From the IMG/VR virus record IMGVR_UViG_3300044624_000943, positions 1 to 39,093 of that record: 39,093 nucleotides of DNA, one strand, 5' to 3'. Shown here one piece after another: positions 5,736-36,293 of the stretch. Both the position numbers and the translations under genes were made by a program. Below the pieces are notes generated by a model. The model was not told where the DNA came from. It was given only the letters and a program-made list of their open reading frames with translations, and made no database searches. Origin of the DNA: a virus. Each line of letters starts with the position of its first letter. The first letter of the stretch is position 1.

Positions 5736-8228
5736 ATGACAATCCCCAACACTGTGCAACATCCCGCGTCGGTTGACGCCTACATCAGACACGGGTGGTC
5801 ACTTGTGCCCATCCCACCCGGCACCAAGGGGCCGCGCACCACGGGGTGGAACCGGCGCGAGTCGGCGCTGCGCTCGCAGGCTGATCTGCCCCCGCAGCAC
5901 GGCATCGGGCTGTCCCACGCCTACAGCGCCACGATGGCCTTGGACATCGACAACTGGGCCACCGCCGCGCCGATGCTGGGCGTCTTCGGCGTTGACCTCG
6001 CTGCACTCTACGATGCGCCCGATGCGGTGATCGTGGACAGCGGGCGGCAGGGGCACGGCAAGCTGCTGTACGTGATGCCCTTCGGCTTGGCGCTGCCGAG
6101 CAAGAAGGTCAGCGTCGAGGGTGGCACCTCGTTCGAGCTTCGCTGCGCCACGGCTGAGGGGCTGACGGTGCAGGACGTGCTGCCGCCGAGCATCCACCCC
6201 GACACGCAGCAGCCCTACCGATGGGCTGGTCGCGGGCACTGGATGCGCCTGCCGTTGATCCCGCCTGCACTGATCGATCTGTGGCAGGCGCTGCTCGATG
6301 AGCCTGCACCCGAGCCTGCGCAGCCCACCGAGTCGGTCGAGGTGAACTGGGACGAGATCCGCAGCGCACTGGACAGCATCAGTCCCGATGTCAGCCGCGA
6401 TGAGTGGATCACCTGCGGCATGGCGCTGCACTGGGCAGGCACGCAGACCAATGACCTCGATGGCGCGTTCACCGCCTGGCAGCAGTGGAGCGCCAAGAGC
6501 GCCGACAAGTACCCGGGTGACCGTGCCATCTCTGCGCAGTGGCGCTCGTTCAAGTCCGACAAAGCCACGCAGGTCAAACTCGGCAGTCTTTTCCACCTGG
6601 CCCGGCAGTCGGGCTGGGTGAAGCCCCCGCTGGACGCCTCGGCCCTGTTCAAGCCCGCTGAGGCGCTGACCGAGCCGCAGGTGCTCATCGAGTCGAGCCG
6701 GGTGCCCGCGCCCGTCATGCGCGTGGAGTGGTGGCCGCAGGCCCTGGCCGACCGGGCCACCGAGGTCAGCGAGCACATCGGGTGCGACCCCATTGTGCCG
6801 TTGTTCAGTGGCCTGGCGGCGGTGGCCGGTGCCATCGATGCTCGCTCGCGGCTGCGGCTCATGGAGGGCTACGAGGTGCCGCCCATCATCTGGCTGATGA
6901 CCATCGGCAGCCCAGCCGACAAGAAGACCCCGGGCGCCTCGCCGATGGTCGAGGTGTTGCACCAGATCGAGGCCGAGGATTACCCGGCGTTCAAGAAGCG
7001 CATGCTGGACTGGGAGGCGCTGGAGGCCCGGCATGCTGTGTCGAAAAAGGAGTTCCTCGACGCCGCCTCCAGCCTCGATGTGACGGGGAACACGGCGCTG
7101 CCCACCGTGTCAGACCTGCCACCGCAGCCCCAGCCGCTGCGCCTGAAGGTGAGTGATATCACCAGCCAGAAGCTGGTGAGGTACGCGGCGGAGCGGCCGC
7201 GTGGCCTGTTGTGCTACCTAGACGAGATGGCCGCCTGGACCAAGAAGATGAGCGACCGCAACAGCGGCGAGGACCGCTCGACGTGGGTGCAGGCGTACGA
7301 GGCGAGGCGGTACGAGTATGACCGGGTGGGCGGTGGTGCGATCATCGCCGAGTGCTTCGCGGTCAGCGTGTACGGCAACATCCAGCCCCTGGTCTACCGT
7401 GGCGCGGTCGAGTACCTGGCCACCGACGGCCTGTTGCAGCGGTTCATCCCGGGCATCCTAGACACGCGCAAGACCCGGCGCGGGGAGCCTGGCCCGCCGG
7501 CGCACTCGGCTGGGTGGGATCAGCTTGTGCGCCTGGTCTACTCGCTCCCGGCGCAGACCTACACGCTGGCCCCGGATGCGTTCGTGCTCTTTCGAGAGTT
7601 CCAACTGTGGTTCGAGCAGTCCAAGCGCGACGAGGTGGTGCTGGAGGCCGACCCCGCGTTCCTGACTGCCTACGGGAAGCTCGAGGGCACTGCTGCCCGC
7701 CTCGCGCTGCTGTTCCATGTCATCGAGTGCCCCTTCAGCAGCATCGTCAGCCGCTCCACGCTCGAGCGGGCCATCAGCATGGTGCGGGGTTACGTGATCC
7801 CGGCGCTGCGGTACACGCTGGCCGAGTTCACCGGGGATTCGTTCGATATCTGGGTGCAGGGCTGGCTTCTATACCACTGCGCCGGGAAGACCGCGGTGAC
7901 CCTCTCAGAGGTCAAGCGAGGCGCACGGCGGCGCATGGAGAAGGTGCAGAGCACCATCCTACAGGACCGCATGGTCATCGGTGCGATGCAGACCCTAGAG
8001 GAGGCCGGCTGGGTTGTGCGGCTCGATGATGGCTCGCGTGAGCACCTGCATCAGGCCGAGTGGGCGATTAACCCGGCGCTGGTGAATGCGTTCGATACGC
8101 AGCGAACGGAGATCATCAAAGCCCGCCAGCGGGCCGAGGATGAGCGGCGCACCATCGCGGGCCTTGAGCGGCGCACGGTGCCGCACTTCGAGGAGTGGAT
8201 GGACGAAGAGGATCAGCGGGCGGCTTGA
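5736..8228 (+). CDS. Primase-polymerase / DUF3987 helicase-like replication protein
   Basis: An 830-residue multidomain replication protein. The N-terminal Prim-Pol domain has D70-x-D72 (LDIDNW), SGRQGHGK (102-109) and FELR (133-136), matching the three Prim-Pol motifs. PriCT-2 follows at about 204-294 (NWDEIRSALDSI ... SLFHLARQSGW). The C-terminal half is DUF3987-like, with a degenerate P-loop GSPADKKTP (391-399) and a YLDE Walker B-like segment (494-497). It probably primes synthesis and may unwind DNA for the family B polymerase. No ATG/GTG/TTG alternative start exists between the leader palindrome and 5736. The end overlaps the convergent methyltransferase gene by 16 bases. Confidence 0.88.
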   Translation: MTIPNTVQHPASVDAYIRHGWSLVPIPPGTKGPRTTGWNRRESALRSQADLPPQHGIGLSHAYSATMALDIDNWATAAPMLGVFGVDLAALYDAPDAVIVDSGRQGHGKLLYVMPFGLALPSKKVSVEGGTSFELRCATAEGLTVQDVLPPSIHPDTQQPYRWAGRGHWMRLPLIPPALIDLWQALLDEPAPEPAQPTESVEVNWDEIRSALDSISPDVSRDEWITCGMALHWAGTQTNDLDGAFTAWQQWSAKSADKYPGDRAISAQWRSFKSDKATQVKLGSLFHLARQSGWVKPPLDASALFKPAEALTEPQVLIESSRVPAPVMRVEWWPQALADRATEVSEHIGCDPIVPLFSGLAAVAGAIDARSRLRLMEGYEVPPIIWLMTIGSPADKKTPGASPMVEVLHQIEAEDYPAFKKRMLDWEALEARHAVSKKEFLDAASSLDVTGNTALPTVSDLPPQPQPLRLKVSDITSQKLVRYAAERPRGLLCYLDEMAAWTKKMSDRNSGEDRSTWVQAYEARRYEYDRVGGGAIIAECFAVSVYGNIQPLVYRGAVEYLATDGLLQRFIPGILDTRKTRRGEPGPPAHSAGWDQLVRLVYSLPAQTYTLAPDAFVLFREFQLWFEQSKRDEVVLEADPAFLTAYGKLEGTAARLALLFHVIECPFSSIVSRSTLERAISMVRGYVIPALRYTLAEFTGDSFDIWVQGWLLYHCAGKTAVTLSEVKRGARRRMEKVQSTILQDRMVIGAMQTLEEAGWVVRLDDGSREHLHQAEWAINPALVNAFDTQRTEIIKARQRAEDERRTIAGLERRTVPHFEEWMDEEDQRAA

Positions 8229-8803
8229 GCGCCCCACTGGTCAGCCATAGCCGCAGCGATCCCCGGGAACGTGGCGCTGCGGATTTTCCACCTGTCCGCC
8301 GATGGCGGCAGGTTGTACCACTCGGGCAGGCTGCGCCCGCTCTTGGTGACGTGCCGCGCCCCCTTGCCGACGATGTTCGAGGGTTTGAGATGGGGCAGCC
8401 CCTTGAGCCACAGGCACGTTGTCTTTGTGGCTTCATGCCCGTGCTCATAGGGCTGGATGATCTGGTCCGGCTTGCGTATGCGGCTGGAGATGATCGAGAC
8501 GGGGTTCTCGATCGCGATCCGCTCGATGGGCGCATCCATGAGCAGGCGCACAAAGTCCAGGGCGGCGGCCTGTTCATCGCGTTTCTTGTCGAACCACCGC
8601 GCCCCGCTCACGGCTAGGTGAGTGCAGGGTGGGTGAGCGATCATCAGATCCCAGCCCATCCCCAGCACGTCACGCACATCCCCGCACCAGTGCGGGCCCG
8701 GTGCGTCCGTGGGCAAAAGGTCACATGACATGGCATCGTGACCCCGTGCCAGAAACGCATCCCGCACGGTGCCGCTGTACTCACAGGCGATGAGTACTCT
8801 CAT
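8213..8803 (-). CDS. DNA cytosine methyltransferase
   Basis: A 196-residue solitary cytosine-5 methyltransferase-like protein of the short phage type. The catalytic PPC motif is at 58-60 (HPPCTHL), ENP at 99-101, and an N-terminal VLIACEYSG segment replaces the classical FxGxG SAM motif. The start is the ATG at 8801-8803, which overlaps the upstream stop (ATGA); an extension 12 codons upstream is less likely. No separate target-recognition domain and no restriction endonuclease is nearby, so it probably modifies phage DNA against host restriction or affects expression. Specificity cannot be read from sequence. It is the last gene of the leftward early operon. Confidence 0.85.
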   Translation of the reverse strand: MRVLIACEYSGTVRDAFLARGHDAMSCDLLPTDAPGPHWCGDVRDVLGMGWDLMIAHPPCTHLAVSGARWFDKKRDEQAAALDFVRLLMDAPIERIAIENPVSIISSRIRKPDQIIQPYEHGHEATKTTCLWLKGLPHLKPSNIVGKGARHVTKSGRSLPEWYNLPPSADRWKIRSATFPGIAAAMADQWGAQAAR

Positions 8804-9081
8804 GGCAGCAGGTGTTTGTGCATGTCGGGCGCCAGACACTCCACGGCGTCCAGCACGTCGAGCAGGCGAGCGGTGACCGCTCCCGGCTCACGGTGCCCAC
8901 AGGCCCAGTTGCGCCACGTAGAGACGGGAACCCCGAGATACCGGGCCATGCTGGCGTCCGTCAGGCCGAGACGGGTCTGCGTGGCCAGGAGACGGGCGGC
9001 GGTGGCCGTGTCTCGCTTTGCGTTCACCCGTGGGCGGCCGGGTTTGCCGGGGGTTTTGGGTTCGTTCGATTGTGTGGTCAT
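8800..9081 (-). CDS. HTH DNA-binding protein with AT-hook-like N-terminus
   Basis: A 93-residue putative regulator. Residues 10-17 contain KTPGKPGRPR, with a GRP core as in AT-hooks. Residues about 38-75 (LGLTDASMARYLGVPVSTWRNW) form a helix-turn-helix of the XRE-like kind often found in short phage proteins. A C-terminal helix (TARLLDVLDAVE) could dimerise. It is coupled to the downstream methyltransferase by an ATGA overlap, suggesting joint expression and possibly control of the early operon. Whether it represses or activates is unknown. Confidence 0.75.
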   Translation of the reverse strand: MTTQSNEPKTPGKPGRPRVNAKRDTATAARLLATQTRLGLTDASMARYLGVPVSTWRNWACGHREPGAVTARLLDVLDAVECLAPDMHKHLLP

Positions 9082-9085
9082 GGGG

Positions 9086-9151
9086 TTAGTCGTCCAGAAG
9101 AATAGCGGCGATGATGGCGGCGGCCAGGGCGGCCAGTAGGGCGTAGATCAT
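9086..9151 (-). CDS. 21-residue membrane micropeptide
   Basis: A 21-codon ORF with almost only Ala, Leu and Ile between a MIY start and a DD end, which would form one transmembrane helix. It overlaps the upstream stop (ATGA at 9148-9151). A GGAGG Shine-Dalgarno (complement of 9159-9163) sits 7 bases before its ATG, so it has real translation signals. It is one of three such peptides in this operon (see 10232-10306 and 11241-11321). Function unknown; membrane targeting of a host process during takeover is speculation. Confidence 0.6.
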   Translation of the reverse strand: MIYALLAALAAAIIAAILLDD

Positions 9152-9366
9152 TCGTCAACCTCCAACAGCGCCCAGGCGTCAGCCAGGGCGGCCTGATGAT
9201 CGGGGTCGAGATCATCGTCAATCTGGTCGAGCGCCCAGCGTAGGGCGGCTTCCAGGCGCTCTACATGGGCCCGGGTGAGCACGTAGGGACTGCGTCGCTC
9301 CCAGCGTTCGTCAGCCAGTTCTGAGGGGGTCAACGGGCGGTCAGGATCAAGGCAAGGGATATCCAT
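9148..9366 (-). CDS. Small acidic protein, unknown function
   Basis: A 72-residue acidic protein with PLTPSELADERWERR and a helical C-terminal half (VERLEAALRWALDQIDDDLDPDHQAALADAWALL). It has a strong GGAGGA site 7 bases from the ATG, within a leader (GGACTGACCTATG) nearly identical to that of the gene starting at 9835. The stop overlaps the micropeptide start. No domain is recognised. Acidic early proteins may act as DNA mimics or inhibitors of host proteins, but nothing here proves that. Confidence 0.75.
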   Translation of the reverse strand: MDIPCLDPDRPLTPSELADERWERRSPYVLTRAHVERLEAALRWALDQIDDDLDPDHQAALADAWALLEVDE

Positions 9367-9369
9367 AGG

Positions 9370-9561
9370 TCAGTCCTCCAATTCCACCCAGACATTGGAC
9401 TCCGGTTCGTACCAGTCCACCGCCGTGTAATCGCCGTGGTGCACCTTTACTTCCCCGTCGCGGGTCCACTCCACATCGTCAATCCGAAAATTGAACCGTG
9501 GGTTTGAAAATGCCATCGTCATTCCGGGCATGAGACACCGGGCTTGCATAACTTTCATCAT
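9370..9561 (-). CDS. Small beta-rich protein, unknown function
   Basis: A 63-residue protein (from the first of two adjacent ATGs, at 9559-9561). An AAAGGA site six bases upstream decides the start; an extension 10 residues upstream has no such signal. The sequence alternates hydrophobic and polar residues (PRFNFRIDDVEWTRDGEVKV, YEPESNVWVEL), suggesting a small beta sheet. Similar short proteins with a 'DVEW ... V.V..GD' pattern occur in phage early regions. Function is unknown. Confidence 0.7.
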   Translation of the reverse strand: MMKVMQARCLMPGMTMAFSNPRFNFRIDDVEWTRDGEVKVHHGDYTAVDWYEPESNVWVELED

Positions 9562-9581
9562 AGGTAATCCTTTGAATCTGC

Positions 9582-9615
9582 GGGGCAACATGCCCCCATA
9601 AGCCCCCAGCGGGGC
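9582..9615. other. Two adjacent small RNA hairpins
   Basis: The short gap between two leftward genes contains GGGGC-AACAT-GCCCC (9582-9596) and GCCCC-CAGC-GGGGC (9602-9615). Neither is followed by a T run, so they are more likely mRNA processing or stability structures than terminators. Pairings are read by eye only. Confidence 0.4.
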
Positions 9616-9628
9616 CTATAGGTGCCGG

Positions 9629-9835
9629 TCAGTCCCTCAACATGCGGGCGCATGCGTTCTCATAAATCTCACGGGCGTTTTCGCTCAGGGTTTCCACGCT
9701 CAGTAAAGGGGAGGGCTTGAAGCTGCGCGAGAGCTTGGACAGTCGCACATACTCACGGGACCATTGGCCCCCGTGGCAGTGCGATAGGGCGAGATACCAA
9801 GCCTCCGCGATATCGAAACGGTCAAAGTAGGCCAT
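9629..9835 (-). CDS. Small conserved phage protein, unknown function
   Basis: A 68-residue protein with MAYFDRFDIAEAWYLALSHC, then GGQWSREYVRLSKL and FKPSPLLSVETLSENAREIY. The type is recognisable from many proteobacterial phage genomes but has no known function. The start has a GAGGATTGACCT leader shared with the gene starting at 9366. It lies three bases downstream of the zinc-ribbon gene. Its fairly rigid sequence pattern suggests a folded single domain, not a low-complexity peptide. Confidence 0.78.
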   Translation of the reverse strand: MAYFDRFDIAEAWYLALSHCHGGQWSREYVRLSKLSRSFKPSPLLSVETLSENAREIYENACARMLRD

Positions 9836-9838
9836 AGG

Positions 9839-10033
9839 TCAATCCTCAGTTATGCCCACGACGGGCGACGGTGCGGGGGCCTTGTTAATGTTTTTTCTGC
9901 GGCAGTCAAAACAAACCTCCAATGCCGAGCGAAGCCATGCCGCGTGGCATTGTGGGCATTGATACTCCCGCGAGACGCCACGGGCATAGCGGTATGCCAC
10001 CCCGCTTGCCCATTTGCCATATTTGTAATTCAT
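9839..10033 (-). CDS. Small zinc-ribbon protein
   Basis: A 64-residue basic protein with two cysteine pairs (C26-x2-C29 and C41-x2-C44) typical of a four-Cys zinc ribbon, preceded by a basic Tyr/Arg-rich segment. The start at 10033 is supported by ATGA overlap with the upstream GTG-start gene and by a GGGTGG-like site. A longer start at 10066 has no ribosome site and would overlap that gene deeply. It may bind nucleic acid or protein; no specific function is assigned. Confidence 0.72.
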   Translation of the reverse strand: MNYKYGKWASGVAYRYARGVSREYQCPQCHAAWLRSALEVCFDCRRKNINKAPAPSPVVGITED

Positions 10034-10197
10034 TCCGGCCACCCCAAAAGTTGATCCGTTCCCCATGCGATAGCATCATCGGGGTTCTGAAAAAACGGGC
10101 ATCCCGCCATCGTGAACCATCGGTTCAGGGCGTCAACCCATATTTCAGCGCGCCACCCCTCCAAGGGTGTTTTTGCGGCGGTAATTCTTGGCTTCAC
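10030..10197 (-). CDS. GTG-start small protein, unknown function
   Basis: A 55-residue ORF beginning with GTG at 10195-10197, with GGAG five to six bases upstream. It ends by overlapping the start of the zinc-ribbon gene (ATGA). The product is basic at the N-terminus and Trp-rich (EGWRAEIWVDALNRWF, FFQNPDDAIAWGTDQLLGWP), with no low complexity, so it reads as a real protein. It fills what otherwise looks like a 270-base gap in a packed operon. Short length and the GTG start make it easy to miss. Function unknown. Confidence 0.7.
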   Translation of the reverse strand: MKPRITAAKTPLEGWRAEIWVDALNRWFTMAGCPFFQNPDDAIAWGTDQLLGWPE

Positions 10198-10231
10198 GGG
10201 TTCTCCAAAGCGCGCAGGGCGCGCAGCAGTC

Positions 10232-10306
10232 TTAAATGACCCCCAGCAGCGCCAGCAGCAGCGCCACTAGGGAAACGATAACAAGGGCTTTGTCCTCAGT
10301 GGTCAC
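10232..10306 (-). CDS. 24-residue membrane micropeptide (GTG start)
   Basis: A 24-codon ORF starting with GTG at 10304-10306, overlapping the upstream stop (GTGA), so translation is probably coupled. The peptide has a short charged N-terminus (MTTEDK) followed by about 18 hydrophobic residues rich in Leu and Val, a single predicted membrane helix. It is the second of three such peptides in this operon. The independent ribosome site is weak. Function unknown. Confidence 0.5.
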   Translation of the reverse strand: MTTEDKALVIVSLVALLLALLGVI

Positions 10307-10503
10307 AGTGTTACCCGATCCGCTAGGGCATCGGATATCTGCCCGTCACGGTGCAGTGAGTCCACAAAATCCACGAACGTGCAACGGACCGTTGCGCAAT
10401 GGAAGTTTTGAGGCTTGCTCAGAATGCCAGCCTCACGGGCTTGCTCTGCTAGGTGCGGGTATGCGTCCCAAAATGCCGCGCGGATTTGTTTCTGGTTTGT
10501 CAT
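10303..10503 (-). CDS. Small conserved phage protein, unknown function
   Basis: A 66-residue protein (TNQKQIRAAFWDAYPHLAEQ, then HCATVRCTFVDFVDSLHRDGQIS). The type is common in proteobacterial phage early regions but has no assigned function. Two cysteines near the middle (C36, C41) and a helical C-terminus are visible. The ATG has AAGGAG nine bases upstream. It overlaps the following micropeptide start by four bases, indicating one polycistronic unit. Confidence 0.78.
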   Translation of the reverse strand: MTNQKQIRAAFWDAYPHLAEQAREAGILSKPQNFHCATVRCTFVDFVDSLHRDGQISDALADRVTL

Positions 10504-10516
10504 GGTCTAGGCTCCT

Positions 10517-10942
10517 TCAGTAAACACAAACACCACGGGAATAGCACTCATCAGCCTTAGACCCTTCCGGTACGTCGCCAGGGCGAAGGATGTAGAGCGC
10601 TGCGCCGCGCGGGTCAGTCTGAACGTAATAGTTCAGGGCCTCATGTCCCGCCCGCGTGCGCTCCTTGTTGCACGAGTCAACGATACGGGCCAAGCGGCGA
10701 AGAGCGCCAGTCTCTCGGTCCGCCACGGTCCAGCGGCGCCCGGAATCAGTCAACCAATACGGTTTCCCCGTGGCCTCGTTGCGTTCGATGCAACCGCCAT
10801 CGGTGCCGCACTCAAGCTCATACCAGCGGCGAAGGGTGAGAGAGATGCGGCGCAATGCTGCGGCTTCGTCAGCGGTGAAGCCAAGCGAAAGGATCAGGTA
10901 TCGCTCCAAACTAAAGCGGCGCAGTGATTCGGCTTTGGTCAT
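10517..10942 (-). CDS. Phage early protein, unknown function
   Basis: A 141-residue protein with an N-terminal helical region (AESLRRFSLERYLILSLGFT, ADEAAALRRISLTLRRWYELE). A central part (GKPYWLTDSGRRWTVADRE) is followed by ARIVDSCNKERTRAGHEALNYYVQTD and a C-terminal beta-rich tail (AALYILRPGDVPEG). The order of segments is recognisable in other phages, but no enzymatic motif is visible. The start has GGAGAA, and the leader sequence (10945-10965) is repeated before the next gene upstream. Function unknown. Confidence 0.78.
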   Translation of the reverse strand: MTKAESLRRFSLERYLILSLGFTADEAAALRRISLTLRRWYELECGTDGGCIERNEATGKPYWLTDSGRRWTVADRETGALRRLARIVDSCNKERTRAGHEALNYYVQTDPRGAALYILRPGDVPEGSKADECYSRGVCVY

Positions 10943-10944
10943 GA

Positions 10945-10965
10945 TGGTTCTCCGTTCGATGTGGT
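10945..10965. repeat. Duplicated translation leader, copy 1
   Basis: These 21 bases are identical to 11216-11236. Both lie immediately upstream of leftward genes and contain the GGAGAACC Shine-Dalgarno on the minus strand. The repeat probably spread as a ready-made translation leader during gene duplication or cassette insertion, and it could also be a recombination site. Confidence 0.8.
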
Positions 10966-10968
10966 TGA

Positions 10969-11211
10969 TTAGGCGGTGACGGGTATGAGGTATTGACAGA
11001 CGACGACGGCGCTCATCATGTCGGTGATGTCACAGCGGGCGAAATCGAATTCGTCAGCGTCACCGCATGACCAGTGACCCGCGCCGGGCAGGTTGGCGTC
11101 GAATGATGCGAGGGCGTTTTGATCCTGAAGCGAAAGCCCGGTTTCGTCGCCGTTGATGAGCGCGGGCAGGAAGTGAGCGCCGATGGTGTAGGTGTAGGTT
11201 TCGAATTGCAT
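10969..11211 (-). CDS. Small acidic protein, unknown function
   Basis: An 80-residue acidic protein (QFETYTYTIGAHFLPALINGDETG, FDANLPGAGHWSCGDADEFDFARCDITD). The start chosen is the ATG at 11209-11211, nine bases from GGAG in the duplicated leader; an 18-residue extension would read through that leader. The C-terminal MMSAVVVCQYLIPV may be a buried helix. The regular mixture of aromatic and acidic residues suggests a folded domain of an unknown family. Confidence 0.72.
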   Translation of the reverse strand: MQFETYTYTIGAHFLPALINGDETGLSLQDQNALASFDANLPGAGHWSCGDADEFDFARCDITDMMSAVVVCQYLIPVTA

Positions 11212-11215
11212 AGTC

Positions 11216-11236
11216 TGGTTCTCCGTTCGATGTGGT
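11216..11236. repeat. Duplicated translation leader, copy 2
   Basis: Identical over 21 bases to 10945-10965, in the same orientation and at the same place relative to a start codon. It supplies the GGAG site for the gene starting at 11211. Confidence 0.8.
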
Positions 11237-11240
11237 GTTG

Positions 11241-11321
11241 TTAGATACCCGCAGCGATCAGGCATGCGAGCGCAAGCCCGAACGCGATAGCGAACAAGTA
11301 GTCAATGGGACGGGGGCGCAT
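11241..11321 (-). CDS. 26-residue membrane micropeptide
   Basis: A 26-codon ORF: a positively charged start (MRPRPIDY) followed by about 18 hydrophobic residues (LFAIAFGLALACLIAAGI), a single transmembrane helix with the N-terminus expected inside. A GGAG site seven bases before the ATG supports translation. It lies between the duplicated leader and a Cys-rich gene, and is the third membrane micropeptide of this operon. Function unknown; it might disturb or mark the host membrane early in infection (speculation). Confidence 0.6.
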   Translation of the reverse strand: MRPRPIDYLFAIAFGLALACLIAAGI

Positions 11322-11335
11322 GGTGGTGCTCCGGG

Positions 11336-11506
11336 TTACAGGTTGCGAAGGGGCTCAACATCCACGTCGATGGCGCGAAGGAATGCTGAGAGGGTGCGCA
11401 CGTGGATGCCCCAGTAGTGCGCGCAGTCCGCGCACGCGTCGATTGGGCATGCTTGGCATTCCGTGCGATTGAAGAGATAGTGGGAGAGGATGCGAGGATG
11501 AATCAT
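11336..11506 (-). CDS. Small Cys-rich protein, putative zinc binder
   Basis: A 56-residue ORF with C17-x2-C20 and C25-x2-C28, a compact four-cysteine knuckle, followed by a helix (HVRTLSAFLRAIDVDVEPL). The ATG at 11504-11506 has GGAG eight bases upstream. It fills the gap between the micropeptide and the first gene of the operon, and is short enough to be missed by ordinary length cut-offs. The regular amino-acid mix supports a real gene. Likely metal binding; role unknown. Confidence 0.68.
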   Translation of the reverse strand: MIHPRILSHYLFNRTECQACPIDACADCAHYWGIHVRTLSAFLRAIDVDVEPLRNL

Positions 11507-11525
11507 GGCAAGGGCTCCGATGATT

Positions 11526-11545
11526 GGCGGGGATCGCTCCCCGCC
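11526..11545. other. GC-rich hairpin in early operon
   Basis: GGCGGGGA-TCGC-TCCCCGCC is a perfect 8-bp stem with a four-base loop between two leftward genes. There is no T run on either strand, so it is probably an attenuator, a pausing site or an mRNA-processing structure, not a terminator. Confidence 0.5.
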
Positions 11546-11554
11546 GGGTTGACG

Positions 11555-11746
11555 TTAGATAATGAAGTCGTAGTGCTTGTCACACTTCATGTCTGCAGCG
11601 ACACGGGAAAGCTCGACTTTGGATCGGTTCGTCATTGCTGCGCGAATGAGTGCAGACATGGAGCGAGCGATGGTGCTGACGTCAACCAAGCCGGCTTGGT
11701 GCCATTGCTTGAGCTTGCTAACTTCACGCTGTTCGGACTTGGTCAT
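11555..11746 (-). CDS. Small early protein, unknown function
   Basis: A 63-residue charged, mostly helical protein (TKSEQREVSKLKQWHQAGLVDVSTIARSMSAL, RAAMTNRSKVELSRVAADMKC). The ATG at 11744-11746 is preceded by AAGGAA eight bases away. An upstream extension of 31 residues would cross the promoter and is rejected. It is the first gene of the leftward early operon, directly after the extended -10 promoter, so it is probably expressed earliest and most strongly. Function unknown; host takeover is a reasonable guess. Confidence 0.72.
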   Translation of the reverse strand: MTKSEQREVSKLKQWHQAGLVDVSTIARSMSALIRAAMTNRSKVELSRVAADMKCDKHYDFII

Positions 11747-11794
11747 GGTCTGGTTTCCTTCGTGTTGCGGGTCAACCGTTGGCCCGTTGAACGA

Positions 11795-11824
11795 ATCATA
11801 GCATGGTTGTTTCAACGAGTGCAA
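11795..11824 (-). promoter_or_regulatory. Extended -10 sigma70-like promoter (leftward early)
   Basis: On the minus strand: TTGCAC (complement of 11819-11824), an 18-base spacer ending in TGC, then TATGAT (complement of 11795-11800), five of six bases of the consensus -10. Transcription would begin near 11788 and give a leader of about 40 bases before the gene at 11746. It is the stronger of the two matched early promoters. Confidence 0.72.
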
Positions 11825-12076
11825 GCCCCTTTGTGTCACTGACTGACAAGGGCGGATTGACCCGGTGCAACCTGCGACAGTGTGACTGGGAGCGAGGGGG
11901 TGCGTGACGGACTAAATTAAAAAAGGTCTCTAACCCTCAAATTCGAACTATCAAAGTCACCTTGTCACACCCCCCCGATTCCCGCACCCATTGACACACT
12001 AGCCCGTGCCATTGCGCTAACCCTTGACCCATTGCACCCTGGATGCGCCCTGGTGGCTGCGCCAATGGATCATTGA

Positions 12077-12118
12077 CGCCCTGGTGGCGACGGGCTGCGC
12101 CCTGGTGGCGACGGGCTG
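12077..12118. repeat. Two tandem 21-bp repeats plus partial copies
   Basis: The 21-base unit beginning CGCCCTGGTGGCG occurs twice in perfect tandem (12077-12097 and 12098-12118). A truncated unit (CGCCCTGGATGC) follows from 12119, and a degenerate CGCCCTGGTGGC lies just upstream near 12046. There is no spacer diversity, so this is not a CRISPR array. The units may bind a phage replication or regulatory protein. Confidence 0.8.
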
Positions 12119-12271
12119 CGCCCTGGATGCATTGACTCACTGGGGCTACCGATGCTGGGGGGAGGGGAGGGCCGGCGACCCGATGAATCAAAAATGAAGA
12201 CACCACGCACCATTTTTTATTTTTTCCAATAATCCATTAAGCCATTGAACAATCCCTCCTCACCTACAACC

Positions 12272-12302
12272 TTGACGCAGCGTCGCACACTCGTAGTACA
12301 CT
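12272..12302 (+). promoter_or_regulatory. Weak candidate late promoter
   Basis: TTGACG (12272-12277) is a good -35, but the best -10 (TACACT, 12297-12302) is 19 bases away. A start from this promoter would fall almost on the ATG of the small terminase gene, which has no clear Shine-Dalgarno. Either the late transcript is leaderless or the true promoter lies elsewhere in the control region. Confidence 0.35.
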
Positions 12303-12308
12303 CGGGCG

Positions 12309-12878
12309 ATGCAGACACAGGAAATCCAGGAAAATCCTGACTGGTTAACAGGCGCACCGTCGCAACTGCTCCCAACCCAGTCACCGATTTCTCCAGTCAG
12401 CCCAGTCGAACATCGTCGTGTGACCAAAGAGTTGCTTGACGCTACCTTTTCGGCCATGTTCGAGCGGGTGCTGTCGGAGATGACGCAGGGTAGAACGCTG
12501 AAGTCGATCGTCAGCGAGGATCTGCGCAGCATCGAGTACGACGCGTTCTGGCGCTGGATCAAACGTGACCCCCAGCGTTACGAGCGGTACAAGGAAGCCA
12601 AAGAGTTGCGCACCGAGTGGTGGGCAGGCAGGATCATCGAGATTGCCGAGGCTGAGGATGCCGCCGAGGACGTACAGCGGTCCAAGCTCAAGATCGACAC
12701 TTACAAGTGGCTGATGGGCGCTGACAATCGCAAACAGTACGGCGACATCAAGCAAGTCGAGATTGCACAATCGATCAGCATCACCGCAGCACTAGAACAG
12801 GCACGCTCGCGTGTGCTGATGAATGTAGAAGAAGCGGTTGACTACATCGAACACAAACCCACAGAGGATGACAACTGA
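12309..12878 (+). CDS. terS: Terminase small subunit
   Basis: A 189-residue protein that recognises phage DNA and hands it to the large terminase. A disordered Gln/Pro/Ser start (1-35) precedes a helical DNA-binding region (TLKSIVSEDLRSIEYDAFWRWIKRDPQRYERYKEAKELR), the pattern of Sf6/phage small terminases. A central helical part (IIEIAEAEDAAEDVQRSKLKIDTYKWLMGADN) follows, as in that family. The stop overlaps the large subunit ATG by one base. No Shine-Dalgarno is visible before 12309, and the in-frame GTG at residue 38 has none either, so the start is the least certain part. Confidence 0.85.
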   Translation: MQTQEIQENPDWLTGAPSQLLPTQSPISPVSPVEHRRVTKELLDATFSAMFERVLSEMTQGRTLKSIVSEDLRSIEYDAFWRWIKRDPQRYERYKEAKELRTEWWAGRIIEIAEAEDAAEDVQRSKLKIDTYKWLMGADNRKQYGDIKQVEIAQSISITAALEQARSRVLMNVEEAVDYIEHKPTEDDN

Positions 12879-35529: not shown

Positions 35530-35753
35530 TGGACACGCAATCCCTTTTCAACGTCGCCGTCTCCATCGCCGGGTTCCTCGGCGGGTGGGTGCTCAACAAC
35601 ATCTACCAGACGATTCGGATACTGGACAAGGACGTGCGGCAGATGCCGTTGCACTACGTCACCAAGGACGACTACCATCGGGACATTGGCGAGATCAAGG
35701 ACATCTGCCGTCAGATCTTCGCCAAACTCGACGCCAAGGCAGACAAATCCTGA
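35526..35753 (+). CDS. Small membrane protein of lysis region
   Basis: A 75-residue protein with one transmembrane helix (about 8-27, FNVAVSIAGFLGGWVLNNIY) followed by a charged helical part (TIRILDKDVRQMPLHYVTKD, EIKDICRQIFAKLDAKADKS). The layout suits a holin accessory, an i-spanin-like or antiholin protein. Homologues in other phages are usually only called hypothetical. The ATG overlaps the previous stop. No partner o-spanin was found, so the specific role is unsettled. Confidence 0.65.
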   Translation: MMDTQSLFNVAVSIAGFLGGWVLNNIYQTIRILDKDVRQMPLHYVTKDDYHRDIGEIKDICRQIFAKLDAKADKS

Positions 35754-35763
35754 AAGGACTGAC

Positions 35764-35934
35764 ATGAACGCAATGATCATTCAAGCGCTAGTACGCCACC
35801 TTTTGACCGCGCTGGCCGGCGGCTTCGCTGTCAAGTACGGCATCGGCAGCGACGTCATGGATGCCATCATCGGCGGTGGCGCTGCGCTGGCCGGTGTGGG
35901 TTGGTCGGTCTACGACAAGCGCAAACAACCGTGA
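35764..35934 (+). CDS. Putative holin
   Basis: A 56-residue hydrophobic protein with two membrane segments (about 4-25 and 33-49) separated by a short DVMD turn and a basic tail (YDKRKQP), fitting small class II-like phage holins. An AAAGGA site five bases before the ATG at 35764 decides the start; the longer frame from 35686 is in another gene. Its stop overlaps the GTG of the endolysin (GTGA), linking pore and enzyme synthesis. Timing of lysis is the presumed role. Confidence 0.72.
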   Translation: MNAMIIQALVRHLLTALAGGFAVKYGIGSDVMDAIIGGGAALAGVGWSVYDKRKQP

Positions 35935-36293
35935 AGTGGTCGGATTACCCCAGCTTCACGGCTGCCGAGTTCCGTTGCCGCCACTGCGGCAAGCAGGAGA
36001 TGAAGCCCGAGTTCATGGGGCGTCTGCAGGCGCTGCGAGACGTCTACAAGCGCCCCATGAGCATCACCTCGGGCTACCGCTGCCCTGACCACCCCATCGA
36101 GAAGGCCAAAACCGAGCCGGGGATGCACTCGACTGGCCTAGCTTGCGATGTCGGCGTGCAGGGCGCTGACGCCCATGAACTGCTGCGCCTAGCCATGCAC
36201 CTAGGCTTCACCGGCATCGGCGTGCAGCAGAAGGGATCGGGGCGATTTATCCATCTGGACTTACGCTCCACGCCGTCGATCTGGTCGTACTAG
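35931..36293 (+). CDS. Endolysin, M15 peptidase
   Basis: A 120-residue zinc peptidase of the M15 group (D-Ala-D-Ala carboxypeptidase type). Zinc-site elements are H66-x6-D73 (HSTGLACD) and H108 (FIHLD). ITSGYRCPDHP (45-55) is the usual preceding segment. The N-terminus has C16-x2-C19, a possible extra metal site. It would cut peptidoglycan peptides after holin action; no signal peptide is seen. The start is GTG at 35931, coupled to the holin. Its TAG stop is one half of the CTAG shared with the opposing gene. Confidence 0.87.
   Translation: MKWSDYPSFTAAEFRCRHCGKQEMKPEFMGRLQALRDVYKRPMSITSGYRCPDHPIEKAKTEPGMHSTGLACDVGVQGADAHELLRLAMHLGFTGIGVQQKGSGRFIHLDLRSTPSIWSY

Follow-up and report, generated by a model that had tools for sequence, protein, structure and literature searches.

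Conserved candidate membrane micropeptides in recurring slots of a leftward operon of P22-like podoviruses

A leftward operon of a P22-like freshwater podovirus (IMG/VR record IMGVR_UViG_3300044624_000943, analysed here as one stretch of 39,093 bases and hereafter called the window) contains three very short open reading frames (ORFs), A, B and C, each of which appears to encode a single hydrophobic helix. We think it probable that A, B and C are genuine genes, that they are translated into single-helix micropeptides of the inner membrane, and that they belong to a recurring, slot-based kit which modulates host membrane proteins, plausibly in superinfection exclusion. The gene and membrane parts of this explanation are strongly supported. 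Superinfection exclusion, or the disabling of a host envelope machine, is our leading guess as to function, offered with modest confidence.

Three single-helix ORFs and their conservation in related phages

The original prediction described three membrane micropeptides in one early operon, and all three ORFs lie exactly where it placed them, on the minus strand, a detail that it did not give (Table 1). Their membership of one operon and the lack of any sequence relation between them are also supported. Each ORF is, as proposed, little more than one helix: a single hydrophobic stretch of ~17–22 residues makes up most of each protein, and the maximum 17-residue Kyte-Doolittle mean is 2.53 for C, 2.72 for A and 3.22 for B. 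The two good Shine-Dalgarno (SD) sites and the two overlaps onto an upstream stop codon had likewise been read correctly, the former belonging to A and C and the latter to A and B; no good SD site is present at the GTG start of B. Three ORFs this hydrophobic were observed in the region against a mean of 0.03 in dinucleotide shuffles. When both strands of the entire 39-kb window are scanned for ORFs of 17–40 codons that bear an SD site and reach a mean hydropathy of 2.0 or more over 17 residues, only A and C remain.

Table 1 Features of the leftward operon in the window (aa, amino acids; nt, nucleotides)
Feature	Coordinates	Strand	Details
Micropeptide A, 21 aa, MIYALLAALAAAIIAAILLDD	9086..9151	minus	Ala/Ile/Leu helix, acidic C-terminus
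SD site of A, GGAGG	9159..9163	minus	7 nt ahead of ATG; GGAGG or GGAG in close relatives
Start/stop overlap ATGA (4 nt), 72-aa gene (9366-9148) with A	9148..9151	minus	
Micropeptide B, 24 aa, GTG start, VTTEDKALVIVSLVALLLALLGVI	10232..10306	minus	Acidic N-terminus, helix reaching the C-terminus
Start/stop overlap GTGA (4 nt), gene 10503-10303 with B	10303..10306	minus	
Micropeptide C, 26 aa, MRPRPIDYLFAIAFGLALACLIAAGI	11241..11321	minus	N-terminal Arg; helix carrying G-xxx-A/G; ends without a C-terminal tail
SD site of C, GGAG	11329..11332	minus	7 nt ahead of ATG; GGAG or AGGAG in most relatives
Helix-turn-helix (HTH) regulator gene (XRE-like, weak)	8800..9081	minus	Starts 4 nt past the A stop and lacks a clear SD
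72-aa protein gene, function unassigned	9148..9366	minus	Precedes A
First conserved operon gene	11555..11839	minus	In relatives, C or the apparently unrelated peptide D directly after
56-aa protein gene	11336..11506	minus	Precedes C; C-type ORF next in 9/10 de-duplicated loci

Conservation of the three frames in related phages had been set beforehand as a test of their reality. Searches with the terminase, with a neighbouring protein and with alignments of C and of B gathered over 100 viral loci, not all of them distinct since some overlap, and each of the three ORFs was found to recur in metagenomic relatives. Homologues or positional equivalents of A are present at ~30 loci. A has eight close DNA variants plus two further sub-families of 19–20 aa at the matching place, which keep length, hydrophobicity and the acidic end more than exact residues. 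B is represented by 8 distinct DNA variants with an invariant core, VSLVALxLxLL, and is retained in two different gene contexts. C occurs at more than 30 loci, in forms of 22–27 aa and in a long form of 43 aa, which is extended at the N-terminus by an Arg-rich stretch. All aligned members of C share R4, F10, G15, L21 and A23, as well as a small-xxx-small pattern, i.e. a glycine followed by a small residue four places on.

The in-frame ratio of nonsynonymous to synonymous polymorphism (pN/pS) was 0.32 for A, 0.62 for B and 0.41–0.43 for C, compared to ~0.9–2 in the other two frames. In enlarged sets the ratio was 0.30 for A, 0.37 and 0.31 for its two sub-families, 0.59 for B, and 0.40, 0.43, 0.15 and 0.25 for the forms of C, with column-shuffle means near 1. 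A and C are clearly under frame-specific purifying selection. Of the synonymous-site bias looked for in the original prediction, a strong signal is thus present in two of the ORFs; purifying selection on B is marginal.

Micropeptide slots across relatives

Hydrophobic micro-ORFs are a general property of this operon. Counting ORFs of 17–48 codons with a hydrophobic helix and either an SD site or a 4-nt overlap, we found 59 on the operon strand and 1 on the opposite strand of 46 non-redundant homologous operon regions, against a shuffle average of 1.3; at least one was present in 37 of the 46. As related loci are not independent, these counts describe prevalence and are not a significance level. 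Most relatives carry one to three such peptides, drawn from different sequence families, in conserved slots of the operon.

Slot 1 is located ~1.1–2.0 kb ahead of the large terminase gene, directly behind homologues of either the first conserved operon gene or the 56-aa protein gene. It is occupied by C in the window's relatives, where the neighbours of C vary, and by D, a peptide of 44–47 aa with the pattern MNKHxLHYIDLNPxP...FSL, in more distant ones. D gave no convincing match in PHROGs (best E 0.05, for one D member). A short E-P-x-D-like helix start is common to D and to B, an accessory gene of the middle of the operon. Common ancestry of D with C or with B was considered and found no support in profile comparison (probabilities of 2% and 11%, respectively, at the low power of profiles this short).

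The last slot holds either A (19–21 aa) or sequence-unrelated hydrophobic peptides of 19–30 aa, such as MIFTVYITLVCIAGAVALFIEK or MITVVVAVSVAVFIGILEEWFRD, in a listing of occupants picked for hydrophobicity. Almost every occupant has a start codon that overlaps the stop before it by 4 nt, and this is so behind upstream genes of several unrelated kinds: homologues of the 72-aa gene, a methyltransferase gene, genes whose products begin MNHTEADYI..., MIDLLTLEP..., MKKLRAALR... or MIRKGQPVT..., and others. Homologues of the 72-aa gene have an A-type ORF behind them at -4 nt in 8 of 23 de-duplicated loci. A GC-rich hairpin and a T-run are present in many divergent relatives; these (e.g. CCCCCAGCAAACCCGCTGGGGG-CTTTTTTA) follow closely, ~7–28 nt past the A stop, and the peptide is therefore the last gene there. 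The HTH gene takes the place of this terminator in the window and its close relatives. It lies downstream of the A slot in many loci, and A also occurs without a directly following HTH gene.

Both slots can be seen in Phage DSL-LC05 (OR003940). Its slot 1 encodes a D peptide of 46 aa, annotated as hypothetical protein WJZ48183.1, and its last slot (L102:1618-1710) an unannotated hydrophobic ORF of 30 codons with a TTGA overlap and a terminator 12 nt past the stop. The expectation that gene callers omit such ORFs is borne out by the second of these but not by the first, so ordinary annotation misses at least some of these micro-ORFs.

We tentatively suggest, at rather less than even confidence, that this podovirus group keeps dedicated slots for host-membrane micropeptides. 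The slot itself would be conserved, in its position, size, single helix and, for the last slot, 4-nt translational coupling to any gene ahead of it, and unrelated occupants would be swapped within it, as in an arms race where host membrane targets, or rival phages, keep changing.

Two further observations concern other branches and positions. At L010:5745-5855 (minus strand), a hydrophobic ORF of 36 aa, MTMGFLFACAVLAIIWTLCPWWLALPITAVGLFVSE, has a 4-nt overlap with the stop of the HTH gene and a strong terminator behind it; the last-slot pattern thus appears again behind the HTH gene where that gene ends the operon. In a separate branch of relatives (L058:6388-6495, L062, L063, L068, L071 and L076), the ORF directly ahead of an ATPase-like gene belongs to another conserved single-helix family of 35–36 aa, of the type DPxWVxxLxSxxVGxxAxxxLFxALSGGI.

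Proposed mechanism and comparison with known systems

We propose that A, B and C are translated and that the peptides would be inserted post-translationally into the inner membrane. Their composition fits inner-membrane single helices, as does an AlphaFold2 model of the 43-aa long form of C, in which a helix at residues 7–17 and a 23-residue helix at residues 19–41 are predicted (pLDDT, predicted local distance difference test, 87). This long form, which occurs at L013:1476-1607 and at six further loci, joins a basic helix at the N-terminus, MIKPLPLRYRIRRFADRNPGQ, to the membrane helix of C. By rule of thumb, the conserved Arg residues of C would keep its N-terminus in the cytoplasm (N-in), and the acidic N-terminus of B makes it probably N-out. 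Once in the membrane, the helices may pack sideways (through G-xxx-A/G in C) on host inner-membrane proteins and alter their activity. A protein partner is favoured for C because its glycine/small-residue pattern is used in helix packing. In the case of A, it may be that the peptide oligomerises in the membrane or perturbs it; such a less specific action is allowed by the preference of its sub-families for length, hydrophobicity and acidic end over exact residues.

Among peptides of known mechanism, the closest analogue is PfsE (PA0721) of the filamentous phage Pf4. This inner-membrane peptide of 30 residues binds PilC, and it blocks superinfection as well as type IV pili (PMC8764522). It is for this reason that superinfection exclusion or a disabled envelope machine would be the likeliest use of the peptides studied here. 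PfsE resembles C in being a phage inner-membrane micropeptide of presumed N-in orientation, and resembles A in a conserved acidic residue towards its C-terminal end. It differs in coming from a filamentous phage and having a known target, whereas A, B and C occupy slots of a multi-peptide operon in a tailed podovirus. If a PfsE-like action on the host membrane is correct, such operons could supply very small inhibitors, one helix each, of the membrane machines of bacteria. E. coli YohP (27 aa), for which a signal recognition particle route of post-translational insertion has been shown (PMC7549839), is host-encoded and similar to A, B and C in size and architecture.

The original prediction spoke of an undescribed class, which was too strong in view of PfsE and of the small phage genes known in bulk, as stated in the passages of PMC11323111 and PMC11364881 that cite Fremin et al. 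2022. As described there, the catalogue of Fremin et al. 2022 contains conserved short phage genes missed by normal annotation, in bulk and much like those reported here in that respect. No account of operon slots with exchangeable membrane micropeptides came up in the literature searched, and the micropeptide families and slot architecture appear to be new. Conserved phage genes of just 19–26 codons are now on a firm comparative footing, and more of them could be sought at the end of the leftward accessory operon, with a 4-nt overlap on the last stop, and directly behind the operon's first conserved genes.

Alternative explanations

The tight spacing around A could also mean that these are leader or translational-coupling ORFs, the peptide being a by-product and the function being to hand ribosomes over to the next gene (from A to the HTH gene) or to space a terminator. 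The 4-nt overlap of A with the preceding stop, the start of an HTH gene without a clear SD 4 nt past the A stop, and the terminator just behind A in relatives would all be explained in this way. We nevertheless regard it as improbable, given the amino-acid constraint in three A sub-families (pN/pS 0.30–0.37) and the hydrophobic helices that occupy the slot even when their sequences are unrelated (with the listing chosen as noted above). Nor is there the fixed neighbour that a leader ORF should have: A stands behind many different, unrelated genes and ahead of the HTH gene, a terminator or other sequence, and C has its own SD and changing neighbours. Inspection also led us to reject a programmed -1 frameshift that would attach A to the upstream protein and so anchor it in the membrane: no slippery sequence was seen where the two frames overlap, the genes ahead of A vary, and A retains a start codon of its own and, often, GGAGG.

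Type I toxins such as Ibs, TisB and Fst are short hydrophobic peptides with charged ends. Peptides of this kind, perturbing the membrane so as to arrest or depolarise the host and perhaps tied to the adjacent HTH regulator, would account for the similar length (19–30 aa), single hydrophobic helix and charged C-terminal end of the A-slot peptides, for sequence that varies while hydrophobicity persists, and for the HTH gene downstream in many loci. No antisense-RNA partner was found: Rfam gave no structured-RNA match in 8000-12600, and a simple consensus scan showed nothing promoter-like opposite the three ORFs, both of which are weak tests. Repressed toxin mRNAs also differ from A, which is coupled in translation to the gene before it in an operon and in many cases has a strong SD. 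We consider a toxin function unlikely. Small hydrophobic helices in a phage may equally bring to mind accessory lysis proteins of the holin, pinholin or antiholin type, expressed from the leftward operon; as the holin (PF23987) and the M15 endolysin are encoded together at 35686-36293 on the plus strand, far from A, B and C and in another operon, such a role is a shade more doubtful still than coupling. Very short ORFs are frequent throughout the GC-rich window, and B alone combines a weak SD with marginal selection, so chance ORFs with no product deserve mention. The shuffle and opposite-strand controls, frame-specific selection and conserved starts and positions make chance a very remote prospect, largely refuted for A and C by their conservation.

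A number of points weigh against our reading of A, B and C as inner-membrane modulators of host proteins. Hydrophobicity was scored in Kyte-Doolittle windows and not by a trained topology predictor. On the selection test B is the least secure of the three, because 27 of 300 column shuffles reach its ratio in the enlarged set (79 of 2000 in the first set). None of the three matches a family of known function in PHROGs (nothing better than E 0.1; best for C E 0.16), and the aromatic YxWGW motif, required for the function or stability of PfsE (PMC8764522), is absent from all aligned members of A, B and C. The close relatives that turned up come from metagenomes, and the four terminase matches in GTDB are all on contigs of metagenome-assembled genomes, with no clear prophage. 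The operon is an accessory and, to judge by its gene layout, probably early one; a simple consensus scan for its promoter returned a single promoter-like site, on the wrong strand, and none that was convincing. In named phages, tblastn to E 10 gave no match to A, B or C, a weak test with queries this short and A of low complexity.

Phage identity, operon layout and neighbouring genes

The window has a P22-like structural module, which includes an Sf6-type small terminase, a P22 portal and a P22 coat protein, and a large terminase with 74% identity to its counterpart in Phage DSL-LC05, the genome of which was assembled from Dishui Lake water (PMC10611076). The operon with A, B and C runs on the minus strand from ~11839 down to 8213, divergently from the terminase genes, and a primase gene convergent to it ends at 8228.

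Methyltransferase-like and HTH genes overlap at the downstream end of the operon (window 8213-9081). In relatives, the A peptide may come after the methyltransferase gene rather than before the HTH gene, which suggests a shuffling of these genes as cassettes. Short direct repeats, GCCCTGGTGGCGACGGGCTGC and variants (window 12043-12135), are located in the intergenic DNA that separates the leftward operon from the terminase genes, and are possible regulatory sites.

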